A stretch of 64,000 nt of DNA, taken from Methylophaga nitratireducenticrescens (lineage in GTDB: Bacteria > Pseudomonadota > Gammaproteobacteria > Nitrosococcales > Methylophagaceae). The stretch is taken from positions 1,302,001 through 1,366,000 of the forward strand of contig NC_017857.3 in NCBI RefSeq assembly GCF_000260985.4, read 5' to 3'. Below are positions 33,789 through 45,133 of the stretch, in pieces; positions within the stretch are counted from its first letter, which is position 1; each line of letters starts with the position of its first letter. A program made the translations under genes and the position numbers. Below the pieces are notes generated by a model. The model was not told where the DNA came from. It saw nothing but the letters and a program-made list of their open reading frames with translations, and searched no databases.

Positions 33789-35462
33789 ATGAGCGAAAGC
33801 TTTGCTGATCTCTTTGAAGAGAGTCTAAACGCAACCCCAATGCAACCAGGCAAAATTGTTACCGGTACGGTAGTCAATGTTGGTCCTGATGTTGTTATGG
33901 TTAACGCAGGTCTGAAATCTGAAGGCGCTATCCCAGTTGCCGAATTCATGAACGAAAAAGGTGAAATCACCGTTTCTGTTGGTGATTTGGTCGATGTTTC
34001 TCTGGAAACACTGGAAGATGGATTTGGTGCAACACAATTATCACGTGAAAAAGCCAAAGCCGCTGAAGCATGGACCAGATTGGAGCATGCATTTGAAGCC
34101 AATGAAACCGTAATCGGTATTATTTCCGGTAAGGTCAAGGGTGGTTTCACTGTCGATTTGGAAAACATCCGAGCGTTCCTGCCGGGATCACTTGTTGATG
34201 TACGTCCTATCCGTGATACTTCACATCTCGAAGGCAAAGAGCTTGAGTTCAAACTGATTAAGCTGGATCGCCCACGTAACAATATCGTTGTTTCTCGTCG
34301 CGCCATTATGGAAGCTGAGAACAGTGTTGAACGCGAAGCCCTTCTGGAAACATTGGAAGAAGGCAAAGTTGTTAAAGGTATTGTTAAGAACCTGACCGAT
34401 TACGGCGCGTTTGTTGACCTTGGTGGTATTGATGGTCTGTTGCATATCACGGATATGGCATGGAAACGTGTTAAACATCCTTCAGAAGTTGTCGCTATCG
34501 GTGACGAAATCGATGTACAGGTTCTGAAATTTGATAAAGAACGTGAACGTGTATCGCTAGGCCTGAAACAACTGGGTGACGATCCATGGAAAGATATCGC
34601 ACGTCGTTATCCAAACAGCACCCGCATCCAGGGTAAAGTCACTAACATTGCCGACTACGGTTGCTTTGTTGAAATCGAAGATGGCGTTGAAGGTTTGGTT
34701 CACATGTCTGAAATGGACTGGACCAACAAAAACGTTCACCCTTCTAAACTGGTTACTTTGGGTGATGAAGTTGAAGTGATGGTTCTGGATATTGATGCTG
34801 AACGTCGTCGTATCTCACTGGGTATCAAACAGTGCCAGACTAACCCTTGGGAAGAGTTCTCAATGACTCATAACAAAGGTGATAAAGTCAGCGGCGCTAT
34901 CAAATCAATCACTGATTTCGGTATCTTCATTGGCCTGGATGGTGGCATTGACGGCCTGATCCACTTGTCAGATATCTCTTGGGAAGAAGAAAACGAAGAA
35001 TTAATTCGTGACTTCAAAAAAGGCGATGAAGTAGAAGCGGTTGTATTGGCGATTGACCCTGAACGTGAACGCATTTCACTGGGTATCAAACAATTGCAGG
35101 ACGATCCGTTTTCAGCGTATCTGTCTGAACACCCACGTGGCACTGTTGTAAACGGTAAAGTTATTGCAGTTGATGCTAAAGGTGCAACGATTGAATTGGC
35201 TGAAGGTGTTGAAGGTTACGTTCGCGTAGCGGATATCGCACGTGAGCGTATCGAAGATGCCAGCAAAGTGCTGAATATCGGTGATGATGTTGAAGCTAAA
35301 TTTACAGGAATGTCTCGCAAGGATCGCACGCTGACTCTGTCAATCAAAGCTAAGGATGATCAAGAAGAATCTGAAGCAGTGAAAGAGTACAGTAATGTTA
35401 GTTCCGGCAATACCACTTTAGGTGATTTGCTGAAAGAACAGATGAATCAGAAAGACAGCTAA
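33789..35462 (+). CDS. rpsA: 30S ribosomal protein S1
   Basis: RNA-binding ribosomal protein that helps mRNA docking; 557 aa with six S1 repeats, like E. coli. Repeats 3, 4 and 5 are easiest to see: [40 protein letters not shown] and [25 protein letters not shown] lies upstream of the ATG. It stands between two hairpin terminators, so it is largely its own unit. Codon choice is visibly enriched for preferred codons, as expected for high expression. Confidence 0.97.
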
Positions 35463-35475
35463 TCTGATCATTGGG

Positions 35476-35506
35476 TGAGCATCCGGTCAGCCCGGATGCT
35501 CATTTT
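35476..35506 (+). terminator. rpsA terminator
   Basis: Perfect 11-pair stem (TGAGCATCCGG with CCGGATGCTCA) around TCAGC, followed by TTTTCTT. Confidence 0.9.
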
Positions 35507-35574
35507 CTTGTTATACAGCTGCCTTTTTATTTAAGGCATAACCCAAAAGTCTACTGCCGGGAATCTAGGAAATT

Positions 35575-35865
35575 ATGACCAAGTCTGATTTGATAGAAAT
35601 ACTATCCGAAAAACAATCTCTATTGAATTACCGAGACGTTGAACTAGCGGTGAAGCTAATTCTGGAACAGATGAGTGATAGCCTGTCACGTGGCGATCGA
35701 ATTGAGATCAGAGGGTTTGGCAGTTTTACCTTACATCATCGTCCACCCAGAGTGGGACGTAATCCAAAAAGCGGTGAAGCTGTTAAGCTTGAAGAAAAAT
35801 ATGTGCCACATTTTAAACCCGGTAAAGAATTACGAGATCGCGTGAATAATGCCGCTGGTTTTTAA
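35575..35865 (+). CDS. ihfB: Integration host factor subunit beta
   Basis: DNA-bending nucleoid protein, 96 aa, acting as heterodimer with IhfA. It has the HU/IHF fold signature [20 protein letters not shown] and [17 protein letters not shown] at the C-terminus. AGGA lies just 4 bases before the ATG. Its place after rpsA is the conserved gammaproteobacterial order. The gene ends 6 bases before the Mth938-like gene, so the two are probably co-transcribed. Confidence 0.95.
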
Positions 35866-35871
35866 CAGAAA

Positions 35872-36258
35872 ATGAAAATTAGTCAGGAAGCCATTACAGA
35901 CGCTTTTGTAATTAAAAGTTATGGCGATGGCTTTCTACTGATTCAATCAAACGATCAGACCTTACAACGTATCACCAATAATTGTATCCTTTCACCTGAT
36001 GGCTTGTTTGATCCGCTGGAGTTGCCACCCTCAGCAGATTATCTAAGCGACTCTCTAATTGAAAATGTAAAAGGCTTCAATGCTGATGTTGTCATTATGG
36101 TGACAGCCGAAGGCATTACACCTCATGTGTTACAAATAATTAGCCTATTCTCCCAGAGGGGCATTTCATTAGAAACTATGTCACTTGGTGCCGCTTGTCG
36201 AACCTATAATTTGCTATTAAATGAAGGCAGAAAGCCGTTAGTTTTAATTTATTTTTAG
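35872..36258 (+). CDS. Mth938-like domain protein (DUF498 type)
   Basis: Small soluble protein, 128 aa, with the Mth938/NDUFAF3-like fold. Family landmarks are SYGDGFLLI, then a C-terminal core GISLETMSLGAACRTYNLLL and NEGRKPLVLIYF. Mitochondrial relatives act in complex I assembly; the bacterial function is not known. It follows ihfB closely. A weak hairpin (AAAGCGG...CTGCTTT) lies just after the stop. Confidence 0.75.
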   Translation: MKISQEAITDAFVIKSYGDGFLLIQSNDQTLQRITNNCILSPDGLFDPLELPPSADYLSDSLIENVKGFNADVVIMVTAEGITPHVLQIISLFSQRGISLETMSLGAACRTYNLLLNEGRKPLVLIYF

Positions 36259-36433
36259 TATTAAAGCGGATGATACCGATACTGCTTTATGTAAATCAGT
36301 AAATAACCTTATTATTGATACAGATTAAATCATTGTTTTTATGTTAATTATTAGTGGCTGCAAAAATTGTACGTATTGCTAATACTTGACCCCGTTAGAT
36401 GAAGACAGGAAAATTCTCTTGTTGGATAACACT
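36259..36433 (+). other. AT-rich spacer before repeat copy B
   Basis: About 175 bases with no gene. Besides the weak hairpin after the Mth938-like gene I see no clear feature. No FNR-type TTGAT-N4-ATCAA site was found here or in the cco leader, although cbb3 operons are often FNR-controlled. Confidence 0.4.
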
Positions 36434-36796
36434 AGGGCTTGTTGATCTTTCATCTCCGCCTCTGTTGTGAGCTGAAAAAGCGTCAATCAAGGCACGAGGA
36501 GCGCCTTTTGTGAGATACATCCATGTATCTCACCCCAAAGGGGGCTTGCGCTCAAAAACGTTTATCTCCATGGATGGAGTGTATGCAAAAGCAATGTCTG
36601 GAACATTGCTTGTCCTGACGTTTTTGTAGTCATTCTAAATAAGTGACTAACAACGCAGGCGGCCAGCAAAGCTGTTCAAATGCGTTCCAGATGCATTTGT
36701 CAATTACTTATGCAGGAAGGCCATACCGCCGCTTTCTGCCTAGTCGGGACAAAAATAGCCGCCAGCAGTGGTGGACATGAAAGATTAACAAGTCCT
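36434..36796 (-). repeat. Palindromic interspersed repeat, copy B (363 bp, inverted orientation)
   Basis: Complete copy in the opposite orientation to copy A. Plus-strand ends are AGGGCTTGTTGATCTTTCAT and ATGAAAGATTAACAAGTCCT, preceded by CT and followed by AG. The same internal blocks occur as reverse complements: GCACGAGGAGCGCC, TAGTCATTCTAAATAAGTGA and CAGCAGTGGTGG. Four embedded hairpins are listed separately. It separates the ihfB cluster from the cco operon, whose promoter must lie in the 180 bases to its right. Confidence 0.85.
36510..36699. repeat. Four embedded hairpins with TGGA/TCCA-type loops (copy B)
   Basis: At 36510-36533, arms GTGAGATACA/TGTATCTCAC surround TCCA. At 36566-36579, CTCCA/TGGAG surround TGGA. 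At 36589-36611, AAGCAATGT/ACATTGCTT surround CTGGA. At 36678-36698, AAATGCGT/ATGCATTT surround TCCAG. The last occupies the same place as the first hairpin of copy A, with the same loop (reverse complement CTGGA) but a different stem: two stem positions changed while pairing was kept apart from one wobble. That points to selection on the fold. Confidence 0.7.
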
Positions 36797-36917
36797 AGGC
36801 CAGTTGAAAATTGAAGAAATTCAGCAGAATTAATCTGTATAACTGTTTTGAATCATTCAGAATTGTTTTGCGGTAAAATTTATCCAGCTGGAATGTTATG
36901 CAGAATGAAACCGGGCT

Positions 36918-36940
36918 CTGTTTCTTCAACAAAGAAACAG
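36918..36940 (+). promoter_or_regulatory. Perfect hairpin in the ccoN leader
   Basis: Arms CTGTTTCTT and AAGAAACAG (nine pairs) enclose CAACA, 36 bases before the ccoN ATG. There is no T-run, so it is not a terminator; it may stabilise the mRNA or bind a regulator. Confidence 0.5.
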
Positions 36941-36976
36941 TACAAGAATTTTCATGAGAGAGAAGGTGTGATCGCT

Positions 36977-38398
36977 ATGCAGGCGAAACAACAGTACAAC
37001 TTTGAAGTAGTCAAATGGTTTGCCTATATGGCATGTGTCTATTTGGTAGTTGGAACAGGTCTCGGTGTCTTTATCGCATCGCAGTTAGCTTGGCCAGTAC
37101 TAAACTTTGATAATCCCTATATCAGTTTTGGACGACTGCGCCCGTTGCATACTAACGCGGTCATTTTCGCCTTTGCCGGATCAACGCTAATGGCAACCGC
37201 TTTTTATGTCGTACAACGCACTTCTGGCGTAAGGCTTTGGAGTGATAAATTGGCATGGTTTACCTTCTGGGGATGGAACCTGATTATTTTAGGTGCCATC
37301 ATCACCTTGCCTTTAGGGTTAACTCAGTCTAAAGAATATGCTGAATTGGAATGGCCATTAGATATTCTGATTGCAGTTGTTTGGATTAGTTACATGTTCA
37401 ACTTCATCATGACCTTATCGATACGTAAAGTTTCCCATATTTACGTTGCCAACTGGTTTTTCCTGGCAATGATGATCATGATTACCTACCTCCATGTGGT
37501 CAATAGTTTGTCTATTCCGGTCAGTATGTGGAAATCCTATTCGATATTCTCTGGTGTACAGGATGCGATGATCCAATGGTGGTGGGGACATAACGCTGTT
37601 GGTTTCTTCCTGACAGCTGGTTTCCTCGGCATCATGTATTACTTTGTACCTAAACAGGCAAACCGTCCGGTTTACTCCTATCGCTTGTCAGTTATTCATT
37701 TCTGGGCATTGGTTTTTGGCTATGTCTGGTTAGGTGCGCATCATCTGCAATATACAGCACTTCCAGATTGGACGGGTTCGTTGGGTGCTGCAATTTCACT
37801 TGCAATGATTATTCCATCCTGGGGTGGCGCACTAAACGGTATGTTCACACTGAGTGGTGCATGGGATAAGTTACGTACAGACTATATTTTACGCTTCCTG
37901 ATCGTTTCTCTTGCTTTCTATGCGATGTCAACCTTTGAAGGTCCGGTCATGGCTGCGAAAACAGTCAATGCATTATCCCATTACACCGACTGGACCATTG
38001 GCCATGTTCACTCCGGCGCTCTTGGCTGGGTTGCCATGGTATCTGTGGGGGCCTTGTATCATATGGTTGAACGGATGTGGGGCACAACGATGTATTCTGT
38101 GAAACTGGTTAACTTGCATTTCTGGATGGCTACCATAGGTACCGCAATTTACATCACAGCAATGTGGGTATCAGGCATCATGCAAGGTTTGATGTGGCGC
38201 GCCTATGATGAATACGGTAATTTGGCATACACATTTGTTGAATCAGTAGCTCAAATGCATCCTTATTATGCAATGCGAGCATTTGGTGGGCTGATCTTCT
38301 TCCTGGGTGCGGTCATCATGCTGTTTAATGTAACAGTGACTATTCGCCGCGCAATTGCAAAACCATCAGCCGAAATGGCTGCTGCAGCGAATATTTGA
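36977..38398 (+). CDS. ccoN: cbb3-type cytochrome c oxidase subunit I
   Basis: Catalytic subunit of the high-affinity terminal oxidase, about 473 aa with 12 membrane helices. Metal ligands are visible: LHTNAVIF (low-spin heme His), [11 protein letters not shown] (CuB His), HHLQYTALP (two more CuB His) and [10 protein letters not shown] (heme b3 and b ligands). The ATG at [10 protein letters not shown] was chosen because AAGG lies upstream and the length fits. A longer frame from 36848 would add 43 unrelated residues and run through the leader hairpin. First gene of ccoNOQP. Confidence 0.95.
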
Positions 38399-38408
38399 GG
38401 ACAACAGC

Positions 38409-39086
38409 ATGGCTAAAAAATCTAACAAACGCATTAGTTTTCAAGAGTGGGTAGAACAAAATGTGTGGGGTCTGGTACTTGCCACAGCACTTGTTGTGTC
38501 TGTGGGCGGTATTGTTGAGATTGTGCCTTTGTTTTATTTGGATACTACCTTTGAGGATGATGTTTTTCCGGAATATGAAGAGCTTGAAGGAGTACGTCCA
38601 TATACCGCCTTAGAGTTAGCTGGTCGTGATGTTTATCAACGTGAGGGCTGTTATTTATGCCATTCGCAGATGGTTCGGCCGTTTCGAAATGAACGTGATC
38701 GATATGGCCACTATTCTCTGGCTGTAGAGTCAAAGTATGATCATCCGTTTCAATGGGGATCCAAACGTACTGGTCCGGATTTGGCTCGGGTTGGTGGTAA
38801 ATACTCGGATGCATGGCATATTCAGCATTTACGTGATCCGCGCTCTGTTGTACCAGAATCAGTTATGCCTCGTTATCCATGGCTTGATCAAGCCACCATT
38901 GATGAAGAGGGTATTACTAAACGTCTTAAAGCGATGAAAGTATTGGGTGTACCTTATACTGATGAAGAAATTATTGGTGCTGCTGAAATGGTGTCGGGAA
39001 AAACCGAAATGGAAGCATTGGTTGCATACCTGCAGGTCCTTGGCACAATGATCCAGTTTGAACCAGGAAGAGACTATCGTGAGTGA
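38409..39086 (+). CDS. ccoO: cbb3-type cytochrome c oxidase subunit II (c-type cytochrome)
   Basis: Monoheme membrane-anchored cytochrome c, 225 aa. An N-terminal helix (about 18-43) is followed by the heme site CYLCH (81-85) and Met ligand candidates near SVMPRYPWL. It passes electrons from CcoP to CcoN. GAGGA formed at the end of ccoN lies just upstream of the ATG. Its TGA is overlapped by the ccoQ GTG. Confidence 0.95.
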
Positions 39087-39288
39087 CTTCCTGTCTTACT
39101 TTGAAACCAATTGGTCTGCCATGACCGTAAGTGATTGGGTCGGTACGATATTGACAGTCATTATTTTCATACTGATGTTCGGTATGTATTTCTGGGTTTT
39201 ACGTCCAAAAAATAAAGACAAAATTGAAGCCCACCGTGACCTGCCACTGAGAGAAGACGATAAAAATTCGGAGAGAAATGATGGCTGA
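39079..39288 (+). CDS. ccoQ: cbb3 oxidase small subunit CcoQ
   Basis: Small single-span protein (69 aa) that stabilises the oxidase. One helix (IILTV-type stretch, about 20-42) is followed by [20 protein letters not shown], typical of CcoQ/FixQ. The GTG overlaps the ccoO stop by 8 bases; a longer in-frame start lies inside ccoO. Its end overlaps ccoP by 11 bases. Confidence 0.9.
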
Positions 39289-40213
39289 TAACAATAAAAA
39301 CCCAAATGAGTGTCCTGATACAGGACATGAGTGGGATGGCATCAGAGAATTGACAAATCCACCACCACGCTGGTGGATCATCGCTTTGTATTTAAGCGGT
39401 TTAATGGTTTTTATTTATTTTATACTTTATCCATCAATACCTTTAGTCAATGACAGTACCGATGGGTTGCTAGGCTGGAGCCAAATCGACGAATACAAAG
39501 AAGGTTTGGCAGAAATTGAAGCCAAGCGGGCACCCTATGAAAATCGAATTGCTGAGATGTCGGCTGAAGAAATTCTTCAAGATGATGAATTATTGCGTTA
39601 TGCCGTAGGCTCTAGCAAGGTACTTTATGGTGATAATTGCGCTGCTTGCCATGGTGTAGGTGGTATTCCCCCAGAAGGTGCAGGTTATCCAATTCTTGCT
39701 GATGATGACTGGTTATATGGTGGTTCAGTCAATAAAATTATCGAAACCCTGGCGAAAGGGCGACAAGGAATGATGCCGGCACATGCTGATTTACTGACTA
39801 CGGAAGAAGTCGATGGTCTGGTTGGTTTTGTTATCAGCAATTCAATGGGTGAAGCCACTGACGCGCAATGGAAACTCTATAATGAAAAAGGCTGTGCAGC
39901 GTGTCATGGTGCAGATGCTAAAGGGGTGCAACAATTAGGCTCAGCAAATTTATCCGATAGAATTTGGCGTTTTTCAGGGGAACCGGACGAAATCCGTCAT
40001 ACTATTCTGCATGGGGTGAACGATGCTAATGATCCAAAAACACGTGTTGCTGTGATGCCCGCATGGAATGAAAAACTTGCTGTGCGGATAGAAGCTGAAG
40101 AATATGGTGACGATCCTGAAGAATATTACGAAGGTGATGAAATCGAACGTCTAACCGAAACCGAGATTAAGAAACTTGCGATTTATGTGCATCAGCTGGG
40201 TGGTGGTGAATAA
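39278..40213 (+). CDS. ccoP: cbb3-type cytochrome c oxidase subunit III (diheme cytochrome c)
   Basis: Electron entry subunit, 311 aa. A soluble N-terminal stretch and one helix (about 32-56) precede two cytochrome c domains with CAACH at 121-125 and 206-210. An acidic insertion (about 268-290, Glu/Asp-rich) lies near the C-terminus. Two ATGs stand in a row; the second (39281) has the better distance to GGAG. It overlaps ccoQ and is followed 39 bases later by a 39-residue membrane peptide. Confidence 0.94.
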   Translation: MMADNNKNPNECPDTGHEWDGIRELTNPPPRWWIIALYLSGLMVFIYFILYPSIPLVNDSTDGLLGWSQIDEYKEGLAEIEAKRAPYENRIAEMSAEEILQDDELLRYAVGSSKVLYGDNCAACHGVGGIPPEGAGYPILADDDWLYGGSVNKIIETLAKGRQGMMPAHADLLTTEEVDGLVGFVISNSMGEATDAQWKLYNEKGCAACHGADAKGVQQLGSANLSDRIWRFSGEPDEIRHTILHGVNDANDPKTRVAVMPAWNEKLAVRIEAEEYGDDPEEYYEGDEIERLTETEIKKLAIYVHQLGGGE

Positions 40214-40252
40214 TAAACGTTAAACTGAATCTTATCCGTTAAGGAGCATGTT

Positions 40253-40372
40253 ATGGGGTTAGATGCTGTTGTAATTGCCGCGATTGTCAGTGTGGTATTA
40301 ACAATTGTGGTGATTGGGGTAATTGCGTACAAGATTGTTAAAAATATGGAAGATAGTTCCGAAGACAAATGA
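40253..40372 (+). CDS. 39-residue single-span peptide, CcoM-like candidate
   Basis: Very short frame with AAGGAG 6 bases before the ATG and a terminator just after. The peptide starts MGLDAVVIAA, is hydrophobic over residues 5-25 (AIVSVVLTIVVIGVIAY) and ends with a charged KIVKNMEDSSEDK tail. Size, topology and position right after ccoP match CcoM, the extra small subunit of Pseudomonas stutzeri cbb3 oxidase, and the N-terminal half has a similar Asp-x-Val-Val pattern from memory. Not every CcoM relative is adjacent to ccoP, so homology should be considered probable, not shown. Confidence 0.65.
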   Translation: MGLDAVVIAAIVSVVLTIVVIGVIAYKIVKNMEDSSEDK

Positions 40373-40386
40373 AATTATCTGTGAGC

Positions 40387-40415
40387 AAAAAAAGCCGATA
40401 CCAGCGGCTTTTTTT
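40387..40415 (+). terminator. Terminator of ccoNOQP and the small peptide gene
   Basis: Eleven-pair stem (AAAAAAAGCCG with CGGCTTTTTTT) around ATACCAG; the right arm is itself the T-run. It works in both directions. Confidence 0.88.
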
Positions 40416-40772
40416 GTGTTTGAAAAACTAAATTAGTAAATGTTTATGTTTAAAATTGGCAGCAGTTCAACAAATTTTTGTTCGAATAATTGTGGGTTCA
40501 ATTCAGCTCGTTATTCATTGAGTAATGTTCAATACCATCGACAAAATGATTGTTGTTCACTCTATTTTATGTAGACAGCAATGCACTATTTTGCATGAAA
40601 TAACAGATGGCGTTACTATTGACACACTTAAAATTACAATACTGATGGTTTTTACTGTGTACCGAATGAAAGCTTAGTATCGACTTGTGGCGTCAGACAG
40701 GTAGAGCTAGATAATTTATACAATTCAGCAATATCAATACTATACAAAAGCATCTTTGATGGGCCCAAATTC
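40416..40772 (+). other. AT-rich 357-bp spacer before ccoH
   Basis: No gene seen. It contains a TTGACA at 40619-40624 with TACAAT only 10 bases further on, too close for a standard promoter. Palindromic bits such as GCAATGCACTATTTTGCAT occur. ccoH-ccoI-ccoS must have a promoter here, but I cannot place it. Confidence 0.4.
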
Positions 40773-41276
40773 ATGGCAATTTCTCAGGAAAACAAACAAG
40801 CACTCAAAAATCCCTGGGTATTGGGGTTTCTTGGGTTTATGTGCCTTTTTTTATCAGCAAATGCGGTTTTTATCTACCTGGCTTTTAGCTCGCCACCCAA
40901 TTTGGTAGTAGATAATTATTACGAGCGCGGCAAAGCCTACACTAATAAAGAAGTACAAATGGGGCAAGAAAATGAGCTTGGTTGGAGCGGAGTCATTATG
41001 GTTCCGGCCAATAACCGGGTTAACCAGCGTCAGGCTTATGAAGTGTTGATCCAAGGAAAAAATTCTAGAACTGTAGAATTGGATTCTGTCAGCTTATTCG
41101 CTTATCGCCCATCAGATCAGCGTAAAGATTTTTCGGTTGAAATGAATCCCATAGGACTGGGTCGATATGGAGCGGATATTGAGTTTGGTTTGCCAGGTAA
41201 CTGGGACATTATTGTTGAAGCCAAGCGCGGCGATGATAAATTTGTGGTTACTCGCAGAATCTATATCGACCCTTGA
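40773..41276 (+). CDS. ccoH: FixH/CcoH-family cbb3 assembly protein
   Basis: Membrane protein needed for cbb3 oxidase assembly, 167 aa. It has one helix near the N-terminus (about 15-38), the family stretch VVDNYYERGKAY, and a periplasmic domain ending RIYIDP. First of the maturation genes ccoH-ccoI-ccoS. The ferredoxin-like ccoG, usually present before ccoH, is missing at this place. Confidence 0.85.
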   Translation: MAISQENKQALKNPWVLGFLGFMCLFLSANAVFIYLAFSSPPNLVVDNYYERGKAYTNKEVQMGQENELGWSGVIMVPANNRVNQRQAYEVLIQGKNSRTVELDSVSLFAYRPSDQRKDFSVEMNPIGLGRYGADIEFGLPGNWDIIVEAKRGDDKFVVTRRIYIDP

Positions 41277-41301
41277 TCAATTTAATGTAAGTTGAATTTT
41301 T

Positions 41302-43764
41302 TTGTCCGAAGCAAAAGTCGTTGCCCACGCCGATATTGGCAAATGTTTTCATTGTGGATTAGCTGTTCAAAATCCAGGTGAATTTACTGCAAAAATAAAC
41401 ACAATTTCTCATGAGTTTTGTTGCCATGGTTGTCGTATGGCCTGCCAGACGATTTATTCGGCAGGATTGCAGGGTTTTTATAATAAAACACCTGACGGTG
41501 AATCGCTTGCCCCACCTCCAGAAACAGCTAATGATTTTCACGCCTATGATATAGATGAAATTCAGGTGGACTATGTCGATCAGCTGGACGATGAACGAAC
41601 AATTTACCTTTTGATTGAAGGCATTCACTGTGCCGCCTGCGTTTGGTTAATTGAACGAGCACTGTATAAATTACCCGGAGTGTTGTCTGCAGATGTTAGT
41701 TTGACTGCAAAACGTTGTCGAATTAAATGGGATAACCGAGAAACCTCTTTATCTGTGTTAATGCAGCATCTGGCTAAACTTGGCTATGCAGCCATCCCGT
41801 TTGATCCGGAAACAGCAGAAGGGGCGCTGGCAAAACGTCATCGTGGAATACTTTATCGTATGGCATTTGCTGGTTTTGCCATGATGAATCTGATGTGGGT
41901 TTCGATTGCTCTTTATTCCGGTGCAGCAGAGGATGAGTTTCGGAATCTGTTTCATTGGGTGGGGTTTTTTATTGCCACACCGACCTTGCTTTACTCAGGC
42001 TACCCATTTTTTCGCAATGCAATCAGTGGATTACGAAGTCTATATCTGACAATGGACTTACCGATTGCTATCGGTGCAACGGCCACGTATCTCTATTCTT
42101 CTTATATCACTTTCACGGGCTCAGTTGAAGGCGAGGTTTTCTTTGATACAGTTGTAAACTTTATATTTGTTATTTTGATTGGACGCTATCTGGAAGCGCT
42201 TTCCAAACGTAATGCGTTATCAGCAACCCGTCGTATGCTAGAGTTGCAACCAAAACTGGCTACGGTAATCGAAACGGGCGAGCAGAAAACGGTACCAATC
42301 CGTTCGGTTAAAGTAGGGGATTTAGTGCTGGTTCGTCCCGGAGAAAATGTTCCTGTTGATGGCATTGTGACAGAGGGGGAAAGTGCCGTTGACGAGTCAA
42401 TGCTGACAGGTGAATCGCAGCCTGTTCGCAAACAAGTGAATGATTCGGTGGTCGCAGGTAGTATCAATAATGAAGGTGCTTTTGTGGTGAAAGCACAACA
42501 GGTGTTACGCCATACTGCCTTGGCAAAGATCATTGCCCTGATGGACGAGGCGCAAACCTCCAAAGCCCCCATTCAGACGCTGGCTGATAAGGTCGTGCCT
42601 TGGTTTGTTGTTGTAACGTTAACTTTGGCGACATTAACTTTCATGTTCTGGGTGGGCACTGATTTTGAAACAGCATTACTGGCTTCAGCTTCGGTGTTAG
42701 TGGTGACTTGTCCCTGTGCTTTTGGCATGGCTACGCCAATGTCTATTGCTGTGGCCAGTGGCGTTGGTGCCAGCAATGGGATTCTGGTAAAACAAGGGAT
42801 TGCATTGGAGTCATTATCGCGAGTCACCCATTATGTGTTTGATAAAACCGGTACACTGACCGAAGGTAAATTATCGCTGGTTCAAAACATAACTGCCGAG
42901 AGTGTTTCACAACAAACAGTATTGCAGATTGCTGCATCGGCAGAACAAAAATCAGAGCATGGCATCGCCAAAACAATCGTATCCGCTGCGCGATCAGAGA
43001 ACTTGCCATTATTAGATATTTCCCGGTTTTATGCTTCGCCAGGAAGAGGTGTGAAGGCCGAGATTGAAGGAAAAAAAATTATCGTCGGTACGGCTGACTG
43101 GATGTTATCTCACAATGTAACGCTTGAAGGTGAATGGCGAGCAACAGTCGAACAACTGGAACAACAGGGCATCAGTTGTGTTTTTGTCGCCCGTGAACAA
43201 CAGCTTATCGGTATTCTGGGGTTGTTTGATACATTACGAGAAGATGCCAAGACCACAATTTCTGATTTGTTGGAGCAAGGGATGAAGGTCACTGTATTAA
43301 GCGGCGACCGCCAACAGGTAGTCAACTCTGTGACAGCAGTGTTAGGTAACGTGCAGCGCTTAGCAGAGGTTTTGCCTGGGGAGAAACGGCAGGTGATTCA
43401 ACAATTACAACAACAAGGTGAATGTGTTGCAATGGTTGGAGATGGCATTAATGATTCACCTGCATTGATCCAGTCTGATGTCGGTATTGCTTTGGCTTCG
43501 GGAACAGACGTATCCATTGAAAGTGCAGATATCGTTTTGTCGTATAACCAATTAAGCCAGCTTTCACTGACAAGACAGCTGGCTACCAGGACATTACGCA
43601 CCATCCGGCAGAATATTGTATTATCCATCAGTTATAACGTGATTATGGTTCCATTGGCAATGATGGCATTAGTCAGTCCCTTACTGGCTGCAATCACGAT
43701 GCCGATTAGTTCGTTACTTGTCATTGGCAATGCTGCCAGGATTAGTCGAATAGTAAAGAGGTAG
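41302..43764 (+). CDS. ccoI: CcoI/FixI-type copper-transporting P1B ATPase
   Basis: Copper exporter that supplies CuB for cbb3 assembly; 820 aa. A Cys-rich N-terminal domain (CFHC...CCHGC) is followed by a heavy-metal domain with CxxC at 110-113. The membrane motif CPC is in [11 protein letters not shown] (about 471-473), the phosphorylated Asp is in DKTGTLTEG (about 514), and [10 protein letters not shown] is the hinge. The TTG start is the first in frame after ccoH; the ribosome-binding site is weak. The CcoS gene follows by 3 bases. Confidence 0.92.
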
Positions 43765-43767
43765 GCT

Positions 43768-43977
43768 ATGGAAGTCATTTATGGACTATTGCCTGGTATG
43801 TTATTACTAGGTTTGGTAGGCGTTGTCGTATTTTTTTGGACGGTGCGCAGTGGCCAGTATGATGACATGGAAGGTGATGCTAATCGGATTTTAATGGATG
43901 ATGATATTACCGAAGAAACTCAAGCGGAATCAGATAACGAAACCAAAGAACAAAATGAAGATAGTAAGGTTGATTAG
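43768..43977 (+). CDS. ccoS: cbb3 oxidase maturation protein CcoS
   Basis: Small single-span protein, 69 aa, needed for cofactor insertion in the oxidase. The helix (about 5-28, PGMLLLGLVGVVVFFWTVRSG) is followed by the family motif SGQYDDMEGDANRILMDDD. The tail is long and acidic (Glu/Asp/Lys). The next gene starts 23 bases before its stop. Confidence 0.88.
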   Translation: MEVIYGLLPGMLLLGLVGVVVFFWTVRSGQYDDMEGDANRILMDDDITEETQAESDNETKEQNEDSKVD

Positions 43978-45133
43978 AGTTTTTGTTCTATGTTGTTTCA
44001 GCCTTATGCTGGTGAAAAATGTTCTGGCGGAAAATGTACGAGTTGGCATGAGTAGTGCTTTGAGTGGTCCACTATCCGAAATGGGACTGTCAATGCAAGC
44101 CGGAATAAACGCATATTTTTCCAAGATTAATTCTGTGGGAGGTATTAAAGGTAATCATCTTGAATTGTTGGCTCTGGATGATGCCTATGAGCCAGTACAG
44201 GCGGCAGCTAACATGCGCGAATTAATTAATAAGCATGAGGTGGTGGCAGTGCTTGGCAATGTTGGAACACCAACAGCGGTCGTTACTGTACCGATTGCCG
44301 AGCAGTTTAAGATTGCTTTGGTAGGAGCGTTTTCTGGTGGCGATGTATTAAGACCGGAACCACCGAGTCAGTACATCATCAATTTCCGGCCAGGATACCG
44401 GCAAGAAGTTGCCACGCTGATAAATGGTTTGTTGGATGCAGGGATTCAACCCGAGGATATTGCTTTTTTTACTCAACAAGATAGTTACGGCAATGCTGTA
44501 TTTCAGGCTGCAACCCTGGCATTGCAAGCCCGAGGGTTTATCCACGTCGATTTTCTGACCCATGCCTATTACTCTCGCAATACGTTGAATGTGGAAGGGG
44601 CTGTTGCGACGATTCTGAAAGCAGAAAAATTACCTAAAGTTATTCTCATGGGAGGAAGCTATGCTCCTTCGGCCAAGTTTATCAAGCTGTTACATGAATC
44701 AATATCTGATGTTTGGTTTGTTAATGTGTCGTTTGTCGGTAGTCATGTTCTGGAGCGATCCCTTAAAGGCGTCAATGCAAATGTGCTGGTCAGTCAGGTT
44801 GTACCGGAAATTGATGCTGAATTGCCAGTTGTTGATGAATATAGAAAGGCTTTAGCAGCGTATGATGAAAGCCTGCAGCCTAATACAGTCTCTTTGGAAG
44901 GTTATATTGTCGCAAAAGTCTTTTGCCAGGCCCTACAACGTATTGATGGTTCTATAACACGAGAGTCCGTGAGCAATGCTTTACATGATCTGGCTGATGT
45001 GGATATCGGTTTAGAAAGTCAGGTTGTTCCCATCCCCTCCTCATCACAAATAAGTAATAAAGTCTGGCTCAGCAAATTGGAGAACGGAACGTTTCAATCT
45101 TTCGAGTGGCGTGATTTTGAGTTATCACACTAG
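43955..45133 (+). CDS. Periplasmic ligand-binding protein (Leu/Ile/Val-type) without transporter
   Basis: Type 1 periplasmic binding protein, about 392 aa. The signal peptide (residues 1 to about 25) ends VLA-EN; the mature start VRVGMSSALSGPLSEMG is the usual first strand of the receptor family. LALDDAYEP, AVLGNVGTPTAV and FTQQDSYGNAVF are the ligand-cleft segments. There is no permease or ATPase in the area. Instead a membrane GGDEF-EAL protein starts 24 bases downstream, so it probably works as a ligand-sensing subunit. It overlaps ccoS by 23 bases, which puts it on the cbb3 maturation transcript. A ribosome-binding site is not obvious. Confidence 0.82.
   Translation: MKIVRLIRVFVLCCFSLMLVKNVLAENVRVGMSSALSGPLSEMGLSMQAGINAYFSKINSVGGIKGNHLELLALDDAYEPVQAAANMRELINKHEVVAVLGNVGTPTAVVTVPIAEQFKIALVGAFSGGDVLRPEPPSQYIINFRPGYRQEVATLINGLLDAGIQPEDIAFFTQQDSYGNAVFQAATLALQARGFIHVDFLTHAYYSRNTLNVEGAVATILKAEKLPKVILMGGSYAPSAKFIKLLHESISDVWFVNVSFVGSHVLERSLKGVNANVLVSQVVPEIDAELPVVDEYRKALAAYDESLQPNTVSLEGYIVAKVFCQALQRIDGSITRESVSNALHDLADVDIGLESQVVPIPSSSQISNKVWLSKLENGTFQSFEWRDFELSH

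Follow-up and report, generated by a model that had tools for sequence, protein, structure and literature searches.

The closest described counterparts of the gene reported here are small single-span proteins of cbb3-type cytochrome c oxidases. In the excerpted literature, CcoM is a single-span subunit of the Pseudomonas cbb3 oxidase that is needed for the stability and not for the activity of the enzyme (PMC8267372) and is important under oxygen limitation (PMC10433244); further background on CcoM is given in an excerpt of PMC9264385. Two small proteins encoded behind ccoP in Campylobacter, CcoX and CcoY, are required for normal oxidase activity according to the excerpted text of PMC8267372, in which C. 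jejuni ccoY is described as a gene downstream of ccoP encoding 33 residues with a central helix. Apart from this Campylobacter paper, searches of an open-access library showed no earlier report of a small gene behind ccoP.

The window, i.e. the whole analysed stretch of 64,000 nucleotides from Methylophaga nitratireducenticrescens (NC_017857.3, positions 1,302,001 to 1,366,000), contains a cco operon in which a small reading frame follows ccoP. The features of this region are:

36977 to 38398, plus strand: ccoN (TIGR00780, 670 bits, above cut-off)
38409 to 39086, plus strand: ccoO (TIGR00781, 287 bits, above cut-off)
39079 to 39288, plus strand: ccoQ with a GTG start (PF05545 FixQ, 30.9 bits, above cut-off)
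39278 to 40213, plus strand: ccoP (TIGR00782, 252 bits, above cut-off)
40240 to 40246, plus strand: ribosome-binding site TAAGGAG, 6 nt before the ATG of the small gene
40253 to 40372, plus strand: ccoM-like gene, 39 codons from ATG to TGA, encoding 39 amino acids, MGLDAVVIAAIVSVVLTIVVIGVIAYKIVKNMEDSSEDK
40385 to 40417, plus strand: intrinsic terminator hairpin with a 13-bp stem and a U-run, starting 12 nt past the stop of the ccoM-like gene
40773 to 41276, plus strand: ccoH, past the terminator (PF05751 FixH, 88 bits)
41302 to 43764, plus strand: ccoI-like P-type ATPase, past the terminator (assigned by eye from its DKTGT and CPC motifs)
43768 to 43977, plus strand: ccoS, past the terminator (TIGR00847, 65.8 bits)

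The encoded peptide resembles CcoX (DUF4006) and CcoY (Cj1485) in being small, one-span and encoded behind ccoP. The likeness to CcoY is one of description, and DUF4006, the family of CcoX, is absent among the Pfam matches of the peptide at E ≤ 10, a search in which the HMMER filters hide most weak matches.

The small gene behind ccoP and its conservation

The ATG of the ccoM-like gene lies 39 nt behind the ccoP stop codon. Its product has one hydrophobic stretch, corresponding to a single transmembrane helix at about residues 5 to 27, together with Asp4, Lys30 and an acidic C-terminal tail. The hairpin behind the gene has a folding energy of -16.5 kcal/mol (z -4.5), and none of 200 shuffled sequences was equally stable. 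It was not listed by a separate terminator scan, probably because the rule of that scan counts A/T pairs into the stem. The terminator divides the ccoM-like gene from ccoH and leaves it on the side of the structural genes. On the minus strand, a 58-residue antisense ORF with a TTG start (40192 to 40368) overlaps the gene and is apparently a shadow of the sense coding sequence.

A search of 58 relatives gave matches at E ≤ 7e-4 in 28 genomes (29 places), all within the host's own family, while the remaining places up to E 1 were weak and mostly inside long frames. From 30 loci, 27 complete genes of this family, including that of the window, were retained as set A1; one locus cut at a contig end (L009) and two non-homologous loci (L029, L030) were excluded. 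All 27 genes lie 27 to 76 nt behind an ORF with a CcoP C-terminus and have a Shine-Dalgarno-like motif, 24 are followed by a terminator hairpin, and Asp4, Val6 and Tyr26 are invariant. Substitutions between the window's gene and those at L002 to L005 are mostly synonymous (dN 0.085-0.112, dS 1.05-1.73); among all 351 pairs, dS is saturated or undefined in 224. The occurrence of homologues at the same place in relatives, together with these signals and the synonymous bias, indicates more than a chance ORF. Judged from sequence, the ORF at 40253 to 40372 is a real gene, and there is strong support for its being a microprotein gene that belongs to the oxidase operon.

With a wider profile, the gene was found in two further genomes of the family (L056, L060). 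No ccoP match was obtained in two of the 35 family genomes (G004, G033). The other 33 have ccoP, and 30 of them carry the small gene, two lack it (G026, G028) and one is interrupted by a contig end about 120 bases past ccoP (G003). In both genomes without the gene, a ccoG-like ORF adjoins ccoP in its place.

The original prediction had described this 39-residue frame exactly as it is found, with a good ribosome-binding site, a terminator directly after it and a single-span hydrophobic product with an acidic tail, and had called it a convincing microprotein gene. These features are borne out by the sequence, and the frame, the signals and the position behind ccoP are conserved. A reading frame without conservation in relatives had been named as evidence against the gene; the frame is conserved in the 27 family genes.

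Distribution among Gammaproteobacteria

Methylophaga has the gene, as do many further members of the Gammaproteobacteria. Against 370 class genomes, the A1 profile, which was built from the host's own family only and is blind to position, gave matches at 38 places, spread over 37 genomes, at E ≤ 0.01. Two of these places were already known, 28 were new loci and eight had no locus. At 26 of the 28 new loci, the small gene lies behind a CcoP ORF on the same strand. The other two (L082 in G340, L085 in G149) lie away from ccoP and are second copies, as both genomes also carry a copy behind ccoP (L159 and L158, respectively). These second copies begin with MLDATAI or MDATAI and end with RLMKTCNS.., and no neighbouring oxidase genes were recognised. 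Of the eight places lacking a locus, six lie in frames of 160 to 1117 amino acids, one is a second place on a different contig of G161, and one, in G348 (L184), is a short frame that resembles a chance ORF and lies far from ccoP.

A census was taken of the 47 genomes of the class set with a CcoP matching that of the window at E ≤ 1e-60. The gene lies behind ccoP in 38 of them, belonging to 19 family codes. It is missing from this position in the other nine (G026, G028, G113, G134, G245, G246, G375, G391, G400), which indicates that it is dispensable in some lineages. At 40 further ccoP places (L160 and L162 to L201 without L184), which were picked from the best-scoring rows and not at random, the gene was found behind ccoP in none. 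A tree of CcoP sequences with 56 rows, 55 of them labelled since L057 ends with its contig, requires two changes of the gene label, compared to a mean of 9.4 for shuffled labels. One strongly supported half of the tree contains the 45 gene-bearing rows together with G026 and G028, which lack the gene, and the other half consists of eight rows without it. The tree thus ties the gene to one CcoP clade. Since many rows of the tree were chosen for carrying the gene, the census is the fairer count. Among plasmid records, 269 contain a CcoP relative with less than 60% identity, and a search with a consensus peptide of the family gave no match.

The original prediction had assumed that few lineages have such a gene annotated, and this undersold its broad occurrence behind ccoP. 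None of the members tested scored above the cut-off of a Pfam or NCBIfam model (NCBIfam for the 27 A1 genes and nine wider members, Pfam for the window peptide and the nine), so the gene is easy to miss. Pfam gave chance-like transmembrane matches alone for the window peptide and these nine members.

Resemblance to CcoM

When the window peptide was compared with 18,950 NCBIfam models, the model of the cytochrome c oxidase subunit CcoM, NF041600, matched best (E 1.8e-4), with peptide residues 3-32 aligned to positions 3-32 of the 34 in the model. The scores of 21.9 bits for the protein and 20.4 bits in the genome search fall short of the curated cut-off of 40 bits, and the product is outside the curated CcoM membership. 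At E ≤ 1, the model matched 16 of the 27 members from the host's family; among the nine wider members one matched, at 16.3 bits. At E ≤ 10, the ccoM-like gene was the sole match in its own 3.1-Mb genome; this threshold is loose, and the model also hit 11 of 14 control genomes with it. The peptide and its relatives have 39 residues and one hydrophobic stretch, close to the approximately 36-residue, single-helix size of CcoM, and cbb3 oxidase genes are present in the genome.

Over the 370 class genomes, the CcoM cut-off was passed in two (L182, L183), and in neither is ccoP followed by a gene like the present one. One of the two belongs to a family in which 30 of 39 genomes pass (the CcoM-passing family). 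The CcoM peptide of that genome (L032) has 36 residues and matches chain N of PDB entry 5djq, which is labelled 'putative uncharacterized protein' and which we take to be CcoM of P. stutzeri. PDB sequence searches with the window peptide and the A1 profile gave no match to this CcoM and nothing relevant. Neither of the Pseudomonas-type CcoM genes, at L032 and L033, adjoins ccoP, in contrast to the window's gene, which lies directly behind it.

For a comparison at the level of profiles, A2 was built from 66 family genes, nearly all beside ccoP. CcoM loci were excluded from it, as were the chance-like L184, three sequences that duplicate L010 (L011, L012) or L090 (L161), and L087, whose start is uncertain. 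Aligned by hhalign to 29 CcoM sequences, A2 reached a probability of 93 and a score of 33.0 over 39 columns without gaps. None of 100 CcoM alignments with permuted transmembrane columns reached this score (best 25.1), and the maximum for 20 decoy transmembrane families was 21.8, with the best decoy resembling CcoQ. Asp4 is present in all 66 A2 sequences and in 27 of 27 CcoM sequences, and position 30 is Lys or Arg in 26 of these 27. By HMM score, 27 of the 29 CcoM peptides exceeded 95% of 982 transmembrane windows, compared to 63 of 580 shuffled versions; this test is conservative because the decoy set still held about five family members.

The reciprocal direction was weaker. An A2 search of 40 genomes (the 39 of the CcoM-passing family and G356) recovered the CcoM gene in three of the 32 with a CcoM-model match, at E 0.05-0.2. 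CcoM was outscored in three genomes (G439, G418, G409) by other small membrane peptides that are not beside cco genes, and these peptides, which were picked for their score, reached 89% with hhalign. In view of the weak reciprocal search and this value for other peptides, the sequence link to CcoM is good, though not decisive at such a short length. Distant homology with CcoM is favoured by the profile comparison. The designation as CcoM-like in the original prediction is partly supported: by the best NCBIfam match, the sole match in the genome, the profile alignment, the length and the residues at positions 4 and 30, but not by the curated cut-off, the reciprocal search or the tails, which are basic in Pseudomonas-type CcoM peptides and acidic in the window's peptide. 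The alignment with CcoM that had been proposed as a check favoured homology between profiles and recovered CcoM poorly in the reciprocal search.

Small membrane peptides with the pattern ELLVYAV...GYxVAxxLDKK were also observed in genomes of the CcoM-passing family (L202, L203, L204). The one that was scanned had no Pfam match, and that at L203 adjoins an ORF that we read as resolvase-like.

Proposed role and alternative explanations

The product is very probably an accessory protein of the cbb3 oxidase, and it is probably CcoM-like. We consider it likely that the ORF is translated as the final member of the ccoNOQP transcription unit and that its product is a CcoM-like subunit, probably a distant homologue of CcoM, that stabilises the oxidase or aids its assembly. 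The peptide would be made together with the other subunits and inserted into the inner membrane. From the charge distribution, its N-terminus would face outside and the Lys-bearing end with the acidic tail inside. It could then join the oxidase, pack on the core as a small additional subunit and stabilise or help to assemble the catalytic complex, as CcoM does in Pseudomonas.

Alternatively, the gene may encode a small subunit of cbb3 that originated independently, occupies the same or a neighbouring site and is an analogue of CcoM, as Campylobacter CcoX and CcoY may be. The position and importance of ccoY in C. jejuni, as excerpted above, provide a precedent, and other lineages have a different small one-helix protein after ccoP. 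The one at L194 belongs to DUF3149 (42 bits, cut-off 23.2) and has the same position and size as the present protein, but it is of another family, with an hhalign probability of 2-3% against A2. The poor reciprocal search and the opposite charge of the tails are also in line with an independent origin. However, the ungapped profile alignment that no permutation equalled, the matching length and the shared residues at positions 4 and 30 argue against it, and we regard an analogue as possible but rather doubtful. ORFs similar to that at L194 were also seen at L164 and L178, that at L164 below any cut-off.

Less probable still is that the product acts transiently in the assembly or regulation of the oxidase instead of being a stable subunit. 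Assembly factors are common behind ccoP, as illustrated here by ccoH, ccoI and ccoS and at other loci by ccoG-like ORFs, and the gene is missing behind ccoP in nine of the 47 genomes with related oxidases. Against this, the gene is separated from ccoH by the terminator, and its product resembles a structural subunit. We regard this explanation as unlikely. A second CcoQ is highly improbable: CcoQ (FixQ) is likewise a small one-span subunit from the same operon, and a locally built CcoM profile scores CcoQ-like peptides at about 9 bits, but a genuine ccoQ is present upstream, PF05545 gave no match for the peptide at E ≤ 10, and the profile link of A2 to CcoQ is near background (24%; 5% for CcoH). 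Although short ORFs are common, with 107 of at least 30 amino acids overlapping 34000 to 44000, a chance open frame without a product is refuted at the sequence level by the frame, start, ribosome-binding site and synonymous bias conserved across many genera.

The new aspect of the CcoM-like subunit proposed here is its wide distribution behind ccoP while no Pfam or NCBIfam model detects the members tested at cut-off. A broader reading, which we offer tentatively, is that in a whole clade of gammaproteobacterial cbb3 oxidases the gene behind ccoP regularly supplies an extra subunit for which there is no curated model. It would be an old subunit of this branch, mostly kept in the operon and lost in a few lineages, and CcoM would be its displaced descendant in Pseudomonadaceae. 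If this is true, descriptions of the cbb3 oxidases from much of the Gammaproteobacteria lack one subunit. CcoM, known as a Pseudomonas subunit, would then mark one extreme of a broad family, open to comparison between lineages that have the gene and lineages that do not.

An FNR-type box was looked for upstream of ccoN. With two mismatches, the count for the whole window was 72 compared to 58.9 expected (sd 6.6), and as this is near chance, no claim is made. A 367-bp element (36432 to 36798) with 36-nt terminal inverted repeats that are 83% complementary also lies upstream of ccoN. Portions of this element recur at 98 places in the host's own genome, itself included, and for this reason it looks like a member of a MITE-type repeat family.
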